From NCBI RefSeq assembly GCF_026230195.1, contig NZ_CP036501.1, positions 2,294,001 through 2,358,000 on the forward strand: a stretch of 64,000 bases of DNA, in the 5' to 3' direction. Within the stretch, counting starts at the first letter, position 1; each line of letters starts with the position of its first letter. This stretch comes from Candidatus Paraluminiphilus aquimaris (lineage in GTDB: Bacteria > Pseudomonadota > Gammaproteobacteria > Pseudomonadales > Halieaceae). Both the position numbers and the translations under genes were made by a program. Below are positions 34,896-51,736 of this stretch, piece after piece. Under the pieces are notes generated by a model that searched no databases, was not told where the DNA came from, and saw nothing but the letters and a program-made list of their open reading frames with translations.

Positions 34896-36296
34896 GTGAA
34901 CGACGATATACAAGCAAAGCTAAGACATCTTCCGTCTGTCAGCGTCGTGCTCGCCGAGTTGGATGACGACATTGCGCGCTGGGGCCATCAAGCCGTAACA
35001 GCCGCGGTTAGGGAGCAGCTATCTCTCCTTCGAGCGCACCTTCACCAAGGTAAAAAGCCTAATTTTGCAATGGCGGTCATTTTGAACTCTGTTCGAGACA
35101 GCTTGTTACGCGAGAGTCGTTCCTCTTTAGTACCCGTCTTTAACCTCACGGGGATCGTTCTTCACAGCAATCTGGGACGCGCCACACTGGCAGAAACAGC
35201 AATTACGGCGATGAGTAAGGCCGCCTCAGGAGCAACAACCCTCGAGTACGACATCACCGAGGGCAAGCGTGGCGATCGCGACAGCCACATAGAGGCGATT
35301 ATTTGTGAGCTCACGGGCGCAGAGGCGGCAACCGTCGTCAACAACAACGCCGCTGCGGTGCTGCTCACGCTAAATACGCTCGCCTTAAATAAGCATGTCC
35401 CGGTCTCACGAGGCGAACTGGTTGAGATTGGTGGCTCGTTCCGTGTACCCGATATCATGAGCCGCTCGGGCTGCCATCTCGTCGAAGTGGGCACCACCAA
35501 TCGTACGCATCTCTCAGACTATTCAGACGCCATAGACAGTGACACGGGGCTTTTAATGCGTGTTCACACGAGCAACTATCGCATTGAAGGCTTCACAAAA
35601 ACGGTACCGGAAACCGACCTAGCGAAACTCGCTTGGGCTCACCGTATTCCTTTTGTTGTGGATATGGGCTGCGGAAATTTAATCAACCTCAAGGCGCTCG
35701 GTCTCCCGCACGAAGCAACGGCTCGCGAGACACTCGAAAATGGGGCTGACCTTGTCTTATTTAGCGGTGACAAATTATTGGGTGGCCCCCAGTCGGGGAT
35801 CATAGCCGGTAAGCGGTCGCTGGTAGCAGAGATTAAGAAAAACCCCTTAAAACGTGCTCTGAGGCTCGACAAGGTGACGCTTGCAGCTCTAGAGGCGACG
35901 CTCCAGTTATATCGCAACCCGGACACGCTCGCATCAGAACTCCCTACCCTGAAACTCCTTACACGAAGCGAGAGCGACATCCAGGCACAGGCGGCTCGAT
36001 TACGCGAACCGCTGGCCACCGCCCTTGGCGACTCGTTCAAGGTGGATGTCATCGCCGTTTCCAGTCAAATTGGTAGCGGATCGTTTCCAATGGAGGTACT
36101 GCCCAGTGCTGGATTCTCGATTCGCGCGCGTCAAGAAGAGGATGAGGCGTTGCGAACACTGCATCAGCAATTTCGGGAGCTGGCGACCCCGATTATTGGG
36201 CGCCTTAGCAATGGTGCGTTGCTACTTGATCTCAGATGCCTCACACCCGAGCAAGAGAGTCACTTTATTGAGCAATTAAACGATATCGCTCCGTGA
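34896..36296 (+). CDS. selA: L-seryl-tRNA(Sec) selenium transferase
   Basis: 466 aa from a GTG start with AAGAAAGGACCC before it. PLP Lys at ~293 in [31 protein letters not shown] and [15 protein letters not shown] are SelA signatures. Converts Ser-tRNA(Sec) to Sec-tRNA(Sec) with selenophosphate. The first base of selB overlaps its stop by four bases. selD is not in this window. Confidence 0.96.
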
Positions 36297-38278
36297 TCAT
36301 TGCAACAGCGGGACACGTTGACCACGGAAAAACTTCACTGGTTAAAGCACTCACCGGCATTGATACCGACACGTTAGCTGAGGAAAAGGCGCGTGGACTC
36401 ACGATTAACCTTGGTTATGCCTATTTACCGACCGAGACAGGCAAACCGATCGGCTTTATCGACGTCCCCGGCCATCATCGCTTCATCAATAACATGATTG
36501 CTGGGGTGTCTGGCATAGACAGAGCGTTACTCATCGTGGCGGCAGACGATGGCGCCATGCCACAGACACGCGAGCATCTCGCTGTTCTGGGATTACTGGG
36601 CGTAAAAGATATTGATATCGTAGTTACAAAAATCGACCGGGCGCCTGAGGATCAAATTGCCGCGGTTGCAAGCCGTGTCAGCGCTTTAGTTAGTGAGACG
36701 ACCGGCGCAGATCCAAGCGTTTTTCGGGTCTCCAATGCCACTCTCTTAGGCATAGATACGCTTCGAGAAACCTTACTTAATATCGCCCGTAAGCGGGCCG
36801 ACGAACAGACCGATCGAAGCGCGAAGCACGGTTTTCGTTTATCGATTGACCGTCGCTTTCATGTCAGAGGCGCCGGCATTGTAGCCACAGGTACTGCAAG
36901 CGCTGGCCGAGTCAGCGTTGGCGATGTGTTGCACCTACTGCCAAGAGGCATTGATGTCCGAGTGAAGGAGGTGCGTGCTAACGACGTCCAAAACGAGACG
37001 GCGACCGCTGGGCAACGCGTGGCGCTGTGTATCTCGGGAAAGGTCGAGCTAAACGATATCGAGCGCGGCGATCTGCTGGTTGATTCAAACTTTTCTGAAA
37101 CATCGGAGCGTGTCGATGTCTCATTGAAACTGTTGCCCCAGCTCGCTCGCCCACTCAAGCACCTGTCACCTGTAAAAGTGCACATAGGCGCCAAACGAGT
37201 CGCCGCGCAGGTGGCTCTTATCGATAACAAGGCGAGTAAACTCATCCCCGGGGAGTCAAGCAAAGCGCAGTTGATCTTCCAACAGCCACTGTGCACAACC
37301 CACGGCGAGCGCTTTGTCATTCGGGATGATTCCGAGACCGACACGCTAGGTGGCGGCGTAGTGCTGGACCCCAAGGGGCCTAAGTACGGTAAATCCAAAC
37401 CCCATCGTATTCAGTGGCTTGAGGCTTTGGAGCAGGCCGACATAGCGTCAGTGGTGACTGCGCTCATTGATCAAGGCCATTGCATCAATTTCTCAAAGCT
37501 GACGACGTGCTTCAACCTGAGAGATGCGCCTCCCGCAGTCTTTACACCCGTCGGGTGTATTAACTTCCAAACAGGTGGCAGTTATTGGATAACGAGCACA
37601 TCACAGCTCGCGCGAACGAGGACAGCTCTCCTCGACGCTGTAGAAAACCGCTCAATAACAGACGTGACGAAGGGGCAAAAGGTTGCGAAAGCAGAACCTG
37701 CGACGACGAAGAAAGCGGGAGTGCCGGCAACGCGAGGCATATTAAAGGACCAACTGCTGGATGCGGCCGGACGCGCTACGCATCCAGCCCTCGCAGAGGC
37801 AACGCTGACCATTTTATTAAAAAAGGGCGAGCTGCAGAGCGCTGAGGGGAGAATCCGACTCCCTGTCGCCTTCGATGCAACCAACCCTCATGATGCCCTC
37901 TGGCAATCACTCGAGCGCGCGCTGCAAGCCGCGGGTTTAAACGTGCCCGTCATTTCAGAGGCGAAATCACAAGCAGGACTTGGGGATCTTGATATAAAAC
38001 TCGCTATCAAGCACGGCCGAGAGGTGCGTGCTTTACACCGCCTCAACGCGGATCGCTTCGTGTTGAGTGGAACGCTGCTTACCTTCATAAAAGTGGCCGA
38101 GCAAATCGCCGCAAATCAGTCACTGTCGGTAGTCGCTTACAAAAACGAGCTCAACATCGGAAGGAAACTCGCCATCGAAGTACTGGAATACTTTGACAGT
38201 CTGGGCTTTACGCGAAGAGACGGTGACCAGCGAGTGATCGTTAATAAAACAGCTATCGAAAAACGCTTGGTTACCTAG
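36293..38278 (+). CDS. selB: selenocysteine-specific elongation factor
   Basis: 661 aa. GTPase domain: G1 [12 protein letters not shown] (residues 6-17), G3 DVPGHHRF, G4 VTKID. EF-Tu-like domains 2-3 follow with [13 protein letters not shown] and [11 protein letters not shown]. The C-terminal ~250 residues are the tandem winged helices (ends [20 protein letters not shown]) that bind the SECIS hairpin. Delivers Sec-tRNA(Sec) to UGA codons. Starts at a GTG overlapping the selA stop. Confidence 0.96.
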
Positions 38279-38330: not shown

Positions 38331-38424
38331 GGAAGAGCGACATCCCCGGTGGGGTGCCTGGTCTTCAAAACCAGTGAGGTGCTGAGACAGCGCCTGGTGG
38401 GTTCGACTCCTACCTCTTCCGCCA
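38331..38424 (+). tRNA. selC: tRNA-Sec (TCA)
   Basis: 94 nt including CCA: acceptor GGAAGAGC, long extra arm (GAGGTGCTGAGACAGCGCCT), anticodon loop GGTCTTCAAAACC gives TCA, 3' end CTCTTCCGCCA. 52 bp after selB. Its 3' end is the integration site of island 2. Confidence 0.96.
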
Positions 38425-38428
38425 TATT
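38398..38428 (+). repeat. island 2 attachment repeat, tRNA-Sec side
   Basis: 31 bp: TGGGTTCGACTCC--CTCTTCCGCCATATT, the T arm and acceptor 3' strand of tRNA-Sec plus 4 bp. Identical to 46321-46351. Confidence 0.93.
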
Positions 38429-38521: not shown

Positions 38522-40225
38522 ATGAACACGGTTCCTTACCTGTCCATACGCCATCAAAGGTTCTATTTCCGCCGCAGTGTGCCAAAAAACTTGAGAGGTT
38601 TTTTCGGTCAGCGGGAAGTTATACGATCGTTAATTACATCTGATCTTAGAGTGGCGCAAAGAGCAGCTATCGCAATGGCCGACATGTTAGACAAACTGTT
38701 TGAAAAGATTTCCAAGGGAGCGACCCTACTCACACCTCAGGAGCTTCAACGGTTTTCCGACAGAGTCTGCCAAGATCAAACCCAAGGACTACTTACTGAA
38801 GCCCTTGAAACCTTTGAGAACAGATCAGATGAGGATGTGGAACTGGAAGCCTTCACGGCGCGGACTTTCAGAAACGAAATACTGGCAGATCTGAAGAAAT
38901 CACGTCTGGGTTCAGCCGCTCCTGTTGTTAATAAGTATTTTGGCGACAATGCTGAAAGCTTCTCAAAAGCCATTTACAACCAACTCTGCAGAGCAGCCCT
39001 CCGTGGACTTGCTGACTTCTACAGTAATGCGGACTTAATAGTAAAAGGAGAGTTGGAGCATCCTGACCTAATCCTCGACGAATTATTTTCTGAAGAGCTG
39101 GAGCCAACGACATCGGACAAGTCCGAATTTAATTTTCAAGGAGTAGTTGATAAATACTTAACTCAGCAGGAAGGCGTCTGGAGCACAAAACAACATCGTA
39201 GTGTTCTCGCCATGTTTAGCTTTTTCGTGGAGTTCATCGAAGTGACTGAGGGCATACCTGTTACCAGTCTCTCACTTGGGAGCATATCCAGTAAGGCGGC
39301 GAGAGCATTTAAAGAACTACTTCAACGATCGCCGAGTAATGCCCGGAAAATTTATCCCTCGTTAAACCCAGTTGAAATGGTTGAGGCAGCAGAGCGTGAC
39401 GGCGCTAAACTGCTGAGTACAACGACACAGAACAACTACCTTCAGTCGTTAAGCAGTCTCTTCAACTTCGCCATCCAAGAACTAGACTACGCTGGCTCAA
39501 ATCCCTTCAAAGGGAAAGGAAGCACAAAGAAAACCAAGCTGAACAAACGAGCACAACGTCTTCCCTTTAGTCAGGAGCAACTAATCACCTTATTCTCCTC
39601 ACCACTGTTCAAGGGTTGTCAGACGCTTGCCTCGTGCCACAAAGCCGGAAGAATGATTCCGACGCGATCGCACAAGTATTGGATGCCGCTAATTGGTCTG
39701 TATTCAGGTATGCGAGAGCAGGAAATTCTTCAGCTTTATGTGGAGGACGTAAGGCAATATGACAACACCTGGGTATTCGACCTAAATCTTAATCACCCAG
39801 ACAAAAAGCTAAAAACAATACAGTCGAAGCGATTAGTTCCACTTCACGACGATCTTATCTCCTTGGGGTTCTTAAGTTTTCTGGAAAGCCGGACAAAAGA
39901 GGATGCTAAGGGTCGTTTGTTTTCAGACGCGCCTATGGCCGCCGATGGAACCTACTCAAGTACTTTCTCCAAATGGTTCAGTCGATACTTAAAGAAAATC
40001 GCCATCAAAACAGACAAAACCAGCTTTCATTCCTTTAGACACAACATTAAAGATGGTTTTCGTAACTCAGGCTGCTCAGACGAGTTAGCGGAGAACTTCG
40101 TGGGCAGATCTACAGGTACCACGGGTGAAGCTTATGGACAGGGATTTTCCATTGCTCGGCTTCACGAAGCATTGCACCACATTGAGTTCAATTGTGTTGA
40201 GATACCAACAAATGATCCGCATTAG
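38522..40225 (+). CDS. int: tyrosine recombinase (site-specific integrase) of island 2
   Basis: 567 aa. N-terminal arm-binding region RFYFRRSVPKNLRGFFGQREV, long core-binding domain to ~330, catalytic domain with Arg398 in LYSGMREQEIL, His503-xx-Arg506 in SFHSFRHNIK, and Tyr538 in GEAYGQGFS, all four expected catalytic residues except that the third (His/Trp) position is not obvious. Begins 98 bp from tRNA-Sec. Should integrate and excise the island at the tRNA 3' end. Longer than usual integrases (~400), mainly in the core-binding part. Confidence 0.92.
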   Translation: MNTVPYLSIRHQRFYFRRSVPKNLRGFFGQREVIRSLITSDLRVAQRAAIAMADMLDKLFEKISKGATLLTPQELQRFSDRVCQDQTQGLLTEALETFENRSDEDVELEAFTARTFRNEILADLKKSRLGSAAPVVNKYFGDNAESFSKAIYNQLCRAALRGLADFYSNADLIVKGELEHPDLILDELFSEELEPTTSDKSEFNFQGVVDKYLTQQEGVWSTKQHRSVLAMFSFFVEFIEVTEGIPVTSLSLGSISSKAARAFKELLQRSPSNARKIYPSLNPVEMVEAAERDGAKLLSTTTQNNYLQSLSSLFNFAIQELDYAGSNPFKGKGSTKKTKLNKRAQRLPFSQEQLITLFSSPLFKGCQTLASCHKAGRMIPTRSHKYWMPLIGLYSGMREQEILQLYVEDVRQYDNTWVFDLNLNHPDKKLKTIQSKRLVPLHDDLISLGFLSFLESRTKEDAKGRLFSDAPMAADGTYSSTFSKWFSRYLKKIAIKTDKTSFHSFRHNIKDGFRNSGCSDELAENFVGRSTGTTGEAYGQGFSIARLHEALHHIEFNCVEIPTNDPH

Positions 40226-46320: not shown

Positions 46321-46351
46321 TGGGTTCGACTCCTACCTCTTCCGCCATATT
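46321..46351 (+). repeat. island 2 attachment repeat, distal copy
   Basis: 31 bp identical to 38398-38428 (T arm and 3' acceptor of tRNA-Sec plus ATATT). Beyond it chromosomal sequence resumes (CTGGCC...) up to the nitroreductase. Confidence 0.93.
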
Positions 46352-50959: not shown

Positions 50960-51736
50960 TTAGTCAGTGACCGACTCGAAGTGGGCTTGCATCGCAGCAA
51001 GCACCACAGACGGGTCAGAGCGTCGCTGATAATCTTCAGATAAATCACGCCAGAGAACCGTTCCCTCGCGATCAATTAGCAAGGTCGCAGGTACGGGTAA
51101 CGCCTTCGCGGGCTCGCTACCGGGCGCAGAGTGAACACCTTGATTGCGTAAACCAAAGGCGTCCGTCACTGCCAACTGCTGATCGGACAACATGGTTGCC
51201 TGTAAGCCGTGTAAGTGCCGTTTCTCTGCTATGACCTCAGGTAGATCGACACTCACGGTAATCACTTTGACACCACGCTGGTCAAATTCCGTTCGTAATT
51301 CTTCCATTCGACGCAACTCGCCGATGCAATAGGGTCACCAATGAGCCCTGAAGAATTTGATCAGAACCAAGTGGCCGTTGAGTGACCGTGAATCGAATTC
51401 GACGCCCGCGTCATCAACCGATGTAAAACGTGGAATCGTATCGCCCACTTCAATCGCTACGTCGGGGGAGACAATCTGTTCGCTAATCAACATAGTGCCT
51501 GGAAAAAACAGCCCCACCACAATCGCAAATATCGGTGGCACGGCGCCTAACCAACTCGTGCGTTTGATAAACGCTAAAACACCCAAGACGGCGCACAACA
51601 TAAAGACCAAAGCGAACCCAGTTCGATCGCTTGGTAATGCAACTTGTCCGGTTAAATGGAACCAATACCATGTCGTAAGCCCAGCTAACGCTGCCGCAAA
51701 AAGACCGATTTTGGTGCCAAGTTTTATTTTCGCCAT
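50960..51736 (-). CDS. selenoprotein: membrane-anchored peroxiredoxin/thioredoxin-fold protein with in-frame UGA (Sec134)
   Basis: 258 codons if UGA at 51337-51335 is read as selenocysteine. Three hydrophobic segments (residues ~10-27, 40-57, 62-84), then a redoxin domain: LVLIKFFRAHW-[UGA]-PYCIGEL, giving a U134-x-x-C137 redox site where relatives have WCPYC; later VKVITVSVD and the cis-Pro segment LPVPATLLID. The frame is open on both sides and continues in the same phase. Automated callers would give two genes (51736-51335 and 51316-50960). selA, selB and tRNA-Sec are in this window. Probably a periplasmic or membrane-facing thiol/peroxide reductase. A sequencing error or a pseudogene are the alternatives. 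Confidence 0.82.
51305..51326 (-). promoter_or_regulatory. candidate SECIS hairpin
   Basis: Minus-strand mRNA CAUCGGCGAGUUGCGUCGAAUG, starting 9 bases after the UGA: arms CAU/AUG, CG/CG, G-U, CG/CG; apical loop AGUUG with a GU. In E. coli fdhF the loop GU lies at nearly the same distance from the UGA. Structure predicted by eye. Confidence 0.6.

Follow-up and report, generated by a model that had tools for sequence, protein, structure and literature searches.

The closest described systems are redoxins with a thiol or selenol pair. ResA faces outward and is tethered to the membrane by one helix, and the motif of SelL is UxxU. Prx-like thiol:disulfide oxidoreductase selenoproteins, with the domain PF00578 and UxxC or UxxU, have long been catalogued, as the available text of two sources makes clear (PMC9312934; PMC13188914). 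The accessible part of the GOS survey lists 225 sequences under ‘Prx-like 1, pfam00578, UxxC’ (PMC2398784). Peroxiredoxins have TxxC or TxxU, and the peroxiredoxin-type selenoprotein motif is given as PxxxTxxU in the text available of PMC13188914.

Our locus lies in a window of 64,000 nucleotides (the whole stretch of Candidatus Paraluminiphilus aquimaris DNA that was analysed). An earlier note on this DNA had described two minus-strand reading frames in one phase that are split only by a TGA, and had called the locus a new selenoprotein candidate. Both frames (51335-51736 and 50960-51316, minus strand) are real and in the same phase. Taken together as 51736-50960 they make 258 codons, with the TGA at 51337-51335 as the sole interruption; the TTG start of the second frame is a mechanical start that comes from the list of open reading frames only. 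Reading through the TGA gives a product of 258 residues with U134 inside RAHWUPYC (...LVLIKFFRAHWUPYCIGELRRMEE...). The genes flanking the locus code for a lacZ-like protein, a sodium symporter and an M17 peptidase, and their counterparts occur, unannotated, in similar size and order in a relative (G006). The features of the locus and of the selenocysteine (Sec) machinery in the window are:

50960..51736, minus strand: selenoprotein gene candidate, three membrane helices and an AhpC/TSA (UxxC) redoxin, 258 aa, U134, TAA stop (frame, translation, Pfam, homologues, model)
51647..51721, minus strand: predicted membrane helix 1, residues 6-30 (AlphaFold, hydropathy)
51566..51622, minus strand: predicted membrane helix 2, residues 39-57 (AlphaFold, hydropathy)
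51494..51550, minus strand: predicted membrane helix 3, residues 63-81 (AlphaFold, hydropathy)
51050..51448, minus strand: AhpC-TSA/redoxin domain, residues 97-229 (Pfam)
51335..51337, minus strand: in-frame TGA, proposed Sec codon, residue 134 (TGA in 33/33 genome-contig loci and 13/13 full-length matches)
51326..51328, minus strand: TGC, Cys137, second residue of the U-P-Y-C pair (invariant in alignments of 13 and 22 rows)
51307..51325, minus strand: bSECIS-like hairpin, nt 13-19 pairing with nt 25-31, numbered from the U of UGA (codon alignment, covariation, fold)
34896..36296, plus strand: selA, L-seryl-tRNA(Sec) selenium transferase (TIGR00474, 576 bits, cut-off 267.9)
36293..38278, plus strand: selB, Sec-specific elongation factor (TIGR00475, 394.3 bits, cut-off 242.25)
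38331..38424, plus strand: selC, tRNA-Sec, anticodon TCA (ARAGORN; RF01852 72.5 bits, gathering 47)

The redoxin domain does continue past the TGA, as had been claimed: the Pfam match to AhpC-TSA (PF00578) runs across it, from residue 97 to 229, with 88.6 bits (E 3.9e-25, cut-off 26). The matches to NCBIfam models are all below threshold, the best being ResA (50.2 bits, cut-off 170). Automated annotation will therefore probably miss the gene or report it in two pieces.

With PF00578 above its cut-off and U134-P-Y-C137 instead of TxxU or TxxC, the window protein fits the Prx-like UxxC class. It has the domain, the U-x-x-C and the marine occurrence in common with the catalogued Prx-like selenoproteins. 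It differs from them in its three helices: the available descriptions, which are our sole basis for the comparison, name no three-helix membrane subfamily. We found no description of such a subfamily in the accessible text of the GOS and Sargasso surveys, of the deep-Sep paper or of two reviews, and the fusion section of the GOS survey describes no such fusion in the text available (PMC2398784). Some of the GOS Prx-like 1 reads may nevertheless belong to the three-helix subfamily (PMC2398784, available text). Within the open-licence literature we found no paper on selenoproteins of Halieaceae, and for HTCC2080 together with selenocysteine the portions available contained only work on methanethiol oxidase. 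Hence the word “new” in the earlier note is too wide for a UxxC selenoprotein of PF00578, a class already catalogued, and stands at most for the membrane-anchored subfamily. As far as our searches reach, this three-helix and probably periplasmic subfamily is new.

Of the ResA/TlpA proteins, ResA is both the best NCBIfam match and the best match to a PDB sequence (4nmu). However, the window protein falls well short of the ResA cut-off of 170 bits (NF002854), has three helices and carries Sec instead of Cys. Peroxiredoxins of the Bcp/PrxQ and AhpE kinds stand alongside ResA among the best structural matches. When the window protein is compared by eye with a Bcp-type protein of the same genome (L031, TPGC), Sec134 falls at the position of the Thr and Cys137 at that of the peroxidatic Cys; its F-F-R-A-H-W-U-P-Y-C departs from P-x-x-x-T-x-x-C/U. 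A SelL-related redox protein (NF040769) is also Prx-like with Sec, but the match is weak (29.4 bits, below the cut-off of 120).

We consider it very likely that the locus is one selenoprotein gene whose UGA is read as Sec. The DNA itself holds the support for this reading, namely the frame, the conservation of the UGA, the covariation of the hairpin, the Cys in homologues and the machinery; from these we infer the insertion of Sec.

The first search covered 58 genomes (the own genome, the same genus and the same order). Full-length matches numbered 13 and did not extend beyond the genus: the own genome and 12 others, which are 62–82% identical to the window product. All 13 retain the frame, the single TGA inside each aligns with that of the window, and the motif is W-U-P-Y-C in 12 and W-U-S-Y-C in one (G009). 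The second search, a species genome-contig scan that shares genomes with the first set, yielded 33 loci, and TGA stands at the aligned codon in every one of them. The two peptides used for the scan sit either side of the UGA codon and exclude it, so there was no selection for TGA, although peptides taken from conserved stretches of the Sec forms favour close relatives. The loci are labelled Halieaceae, Luminiphilus, Haliea or Halioglobus, marine gammaproteobacterium HTCC2080 and SAR92; three come from two MAGs (Binatia, Deltaproteobacteria), one is labelled Flavobacteriaceae, and the remainder bear only the labels bacterium, Proteobacteria or Gammaproteobacteria. The closest named record is Halieaceae bacterium MED611 (L032, 98% identity). 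The terminal stops of the 33 loci are TAA (13), TAG (12) and TGA (8). Eighteen pattern matches in viral contigs included no relative, and phage records gave no match.

In comparison with G006, pN is 0.08 and pS 0.78 downstream of the TGA (0.14 and 0.75 upstream). Protein-changing differences are thus as rare after the TGA as before it, which points to purifying selection downstream. TGA and frame are both retained in the relatives, and we saw no loss of the frame.

A hairpin follows the UGA, with a stem of 7 bp and an apical loop of 5 nt, AGUUG, at 51314-51318. At the lowest position of the stem (13-31) the window and two close relatives have A-A. We aligned 22 genes by codon, taking 21 of the 33 loci together with the window. 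Of the 254 six-codon stretches scored in this alignment, the one from +4 to +9 after the UGA ranks first in excess synonymous identity. A wider tally of the codons after the UGA takes in 33 rows (the window and 32 loci, with one identical stretch omitted). These rows use GTC or ATC at codon +4 and GGC or GCC at codon +5. For Leu +7 all 33 use TTR, compared with 25% TTR among the Leu codons of the 22 genes. The loop is AGUUG or AGUUA, with AAUUG in two loci (L058 and L059). Six of the seven stem positions pair in 33/33 rows and the lowest in 30/33. GGC accompanies CGT or CGC, while GCC accompanies CGG in all seven rows that have it, a compensatory swap within the coding sequence. Over the 32 distinct rows 98.7% of the cells are paired, and nine cells have both sides changed. 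None of 500 shuffles reached the pairing, double-change or covariation score of these rows; the remaining two of the five measures were ordinary (336/500 each). If the partner strand is slid, pairing falls to 21–61%. RNAalifold, unaided, predicts the same helix.

Bacterial SECIS elements have published bSECISearch criteria, which we scripted: a loop of 3–9 nt, an upper stem of 4–16 bp, G in the first two loop positions, a spacing of 16–37 nt and an MFE of at most -7.5 (legend in PMC13188914). The window hairpin, with its 5-nt loop AGUUG, 16 nt from UGA to loop and -8.8 kcal/mol, falls within them, so that the SECIS-like structure suspected behind the TGA is present and is maintained by compensatory changes. 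When each row is folded on its own, 26 of the 33 pass and seven fail; L084 and L086 fold differently. The criteria also admit 310 of the window's 2415 TGA triplets, so a hairpin alone is weak evidence and we reject it as proof. It is the comparative evidence, rather than the hairpin itself, that carries the case.

Outside the genus we relied on profile searches (E <= 1e-20), with matches in 30 of 390 genomes at the order level and in 8 of 369 at the class level, the own genome being in both. These gave 35 matches outside the genus, of which 33 loci were inspected; second matches in two genomes (G459 and G519) were left out, and L015 and L104 are one gene of G042. The Cys that the earlier note expected in related redoxins at aligned position 134 is found in 29 of these 33 distant loci, and the other four have Sec (L079, L084, L085 and L086). 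Two of the Cys loci, L087 (G466) and L088 (G593), are orthologues with W-C-P-Y-C and a TGC codon. They match the Sec forms from the membrane region through the redoxin domain (profile positions 8-250 and 7-250 of 251) and form one clade with them (SH-aLRT 97). The hairpin was looked for in both and is absent. Their genomes gave no match to selA, and their tRNA-Sec matches are below the cut-off, the one in G466 being a tRNA-Ser. A quick tree of 55 rows puts 25 Sec rows on one side of a branch that has a support of only 33 and for which the program issues a long-branch warning; seven of the 33 distant loci were omitted from it (L075, L079, L080, L091, L095, L104 and L105), including the Sec-bearing L079. 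This last locus (from G370) is a distant redoxin that resembles the soluble group and has an in-frame TGA in FRGHWUPYC. It is possibly an independent Sec exchange.

The window also contains selA, selB and tRNA-Sec, all three as stated earlier. The two protein genes precede tRNA-Sec, whose end is 12.5 kb from the redoxin gene. With selD (408 bits), which lies elsewhere, outside the window, the own genome carries selA, selB, selC and selD.

Gene and machinery go together in the genus. Among 37 same-genus genomes the tRNA-Sec match reaches 66 bits or more in 12 of the 13 with the redoxin gene and in 3 of the 24 without (p 2.8e-6); for genomes at least 90% complete the counts are 8/8 and 0/4. The line at 66 bits is our own choice and not the cut-off of Rfam; we drew it because matches of 47–50 bits resemble tRNA-Ser, as ARAGORN indicates for G621 only. 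At the Rfam cut-off of 47 bits the counts are 12/13 and 9/24 (p 0.0016), and 8/8 and 2/4 in genomes at least 90% complete (p 0.09). One genome, G025, has a tRNA-Sec match of 48.7 bits and no selA. We sought selA in 16 chosen genomes. Seven same-genus genomes without the redoxin gene were among them, and selA was found in G004 (97% complete), G007, G031 and G032 and in none of G010, G025 and G036. Hence the Sec trait does not require the redoxin gene. In G020 (79% complete) the redoxin gene is accompanied by part of selA, and no tRNA-Sec match exceeds 42 bits. In G621 (100% complete, 6 contigs) the gene, its UGA and the hairpin are all present (L085), but the genome gave no selA match, and ARAGORN identifies its sole tRNA-Sec match as a tRNA-Ser. 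The UGA in G621 looks orphaned. Recent loss or a missing region may account for this exception.

One could argue that the UGA is decoded not as Sec but as Trp or Cys, by near-cognate readthrough or under a changed code. The continuity of the frame is silent on the residue inserted, and in G621 the gene is present although no Sec machinery was detected. We nevertheless regard such decoding as very improbable, for the following reasons. First, 8 of the 33 orthologues use UGA as their terminal stop. Second, the distant loci have Cys, not Trp, at this position in 29 of 33 cases. Third, all four sel genes are present and the SECIS-like hairpin is conserved.

It is also highly unlikely that the UGA is chiefly a regulatory stop, with a 133-residue membrane protein as main product and the full length made only with selenium. 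The three predicted helices do end upstream of the UGA, and a degree of termination is normal at Sec codons. However, purifying selection past the stop implies that the full product matters, and a regulatory role would be additional to the reading as Sec rather than an alternative to it. That the TGA is a nonsense mutation or a base-call error in an ordinary Cys redoxin is hardly credible: the stop-split pair of frames does resemble a recent nonsense mutation and G621 carries the gene without detected machinery, but the same TGA recurs in 33/33 loci and 13/13 full-length matches, purifying selection acts past it, and synonymous constraint and covariation lie immediately 3′ of it.

Under the reading as a selenoprotein, the product would be anchored in the membrane. 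AlphaFold, given 22 sequences, predicts three helices ahead of a thioredoxin/peroxiredoxin fold (mean pLDDT 87.2), in agreement with the membrane fusion proposed earlier. The top structural matches in the PDB are Bcp4, ResA and other peroxiredoxins (3hjp, 5epf, 3drn, 1xxu). The N-terminus has a net charge of +1 to +3 in 20 of 22 rows (L059 has 0 and L064 is truncated), loop 1 has -2 to +1 in 21 rows (L059 +3), loop 2 has +1 or +2 in 21 rows (L059 -1), and the segment after helix 3 has 0 to -4 in the 22 rows. L059 is the exception that breaks this pattern. The pattern favours an N-terminus inside and a redoxin domain in the periplasm. We also considered a cytoplasmic redoxin domain, against which the charges speak without being proof.

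We propose that SelB and Sec-tRNA-Sec decode the UGA at 51337-51335 as selenocysteine, and that the hairpin just 3′ of it (51325-51307) directs this decoding. The product would be a 258-residue inner-membrane protein in which three helices anchor a peroxiredoxin-like domain of thioredoxin fold, with Sec134-x-x-Cys137 as the active pair. Its likeliest chemistry would be the reduction of a thiol:disulfide (or of peroxide). The selenolate of Sec134 would attack the substrate and Cys137 would resolve the selenenylsulfide; a thiol donor of the DsbD/CcdA kind, located in the membrane or the periplasm, could then reduce the latter. The catalytic roles, donor, partners and substrate in this scheme are putative, as are the insertion and orientation, and so would be any function past thiol/selenol redox chemistry.

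It is conceivable, although we think it rather unlikely, that marine gammaproteobacteria have a dedicated selenium thiol relay at the inner membrane. The anchored Sec redoxin, a convergent selenoprotein neighbour in several relatives and a donor of the DsbD/CcdA type would pass electrons among themselves, and such redoxins would be a main reason why the Sec trait is kept. With our locus, the selenoproteome of marine bacteria (OM60/NOR5, SAR92) gains a conserved Sec redoxin that is tethered to the membrane and probably periplasmic. The natural pair of Sec and Cys forms in one family offers a test of what Sec buys. The SECIS comes with covariation evidence, which is unobtainable from the hairpin of a single genome.

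Nine of the 37 same-genus genomes have a partner redoxin gene that is interrupted in frame by a TGA of its own, in W-U-P-P-C; the TGA is present in 9/9 copies. This gene is convergent to the anchored redoxin in eight of the nine genomes. The ninth copy is cut by a contig end (G031), and that genome shows no anchored redoxin. In the two copies examined (L112:11164-12369 and L111:9490-10719) the product has 402–410 aa, with a UxxC AhpC-TSA domain and a DsbD_N-like one, and by eye no signal sequence. The partner is absent from the window's genome, where its best match is the anchored redoxin itself. It is a candidate for a second, convergent selenoprotein, and this combination of redoxin and DsbD_N in some relatives is new as far as our searches reach.

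A second UGA-interrupted UxxC AhpC-TSA protein occurs in the own genome at 1,141,011 on the minus strand (L121:433-1623, minus strand). Its hairpin loop is AGUUA, hydrophobic segments are visible by eye at its C-terminus, and no NCBIfam model reaches its cut-off. We found no Rdx/SelW in the own genome.

Next to the Sec machinery, a perfect direct repeat of 31 nt (38398-38428 and 46321-46351) covers the 3′ end of tRNA-Sec and bounds about 7.9 kb. The bounded segment starts with a tyrosine-recombinase-like gene (38522-40225, Phage_integrase and DUF6538). An element has apparently inserted at the tRNA-Sec gene and left the gene intact.
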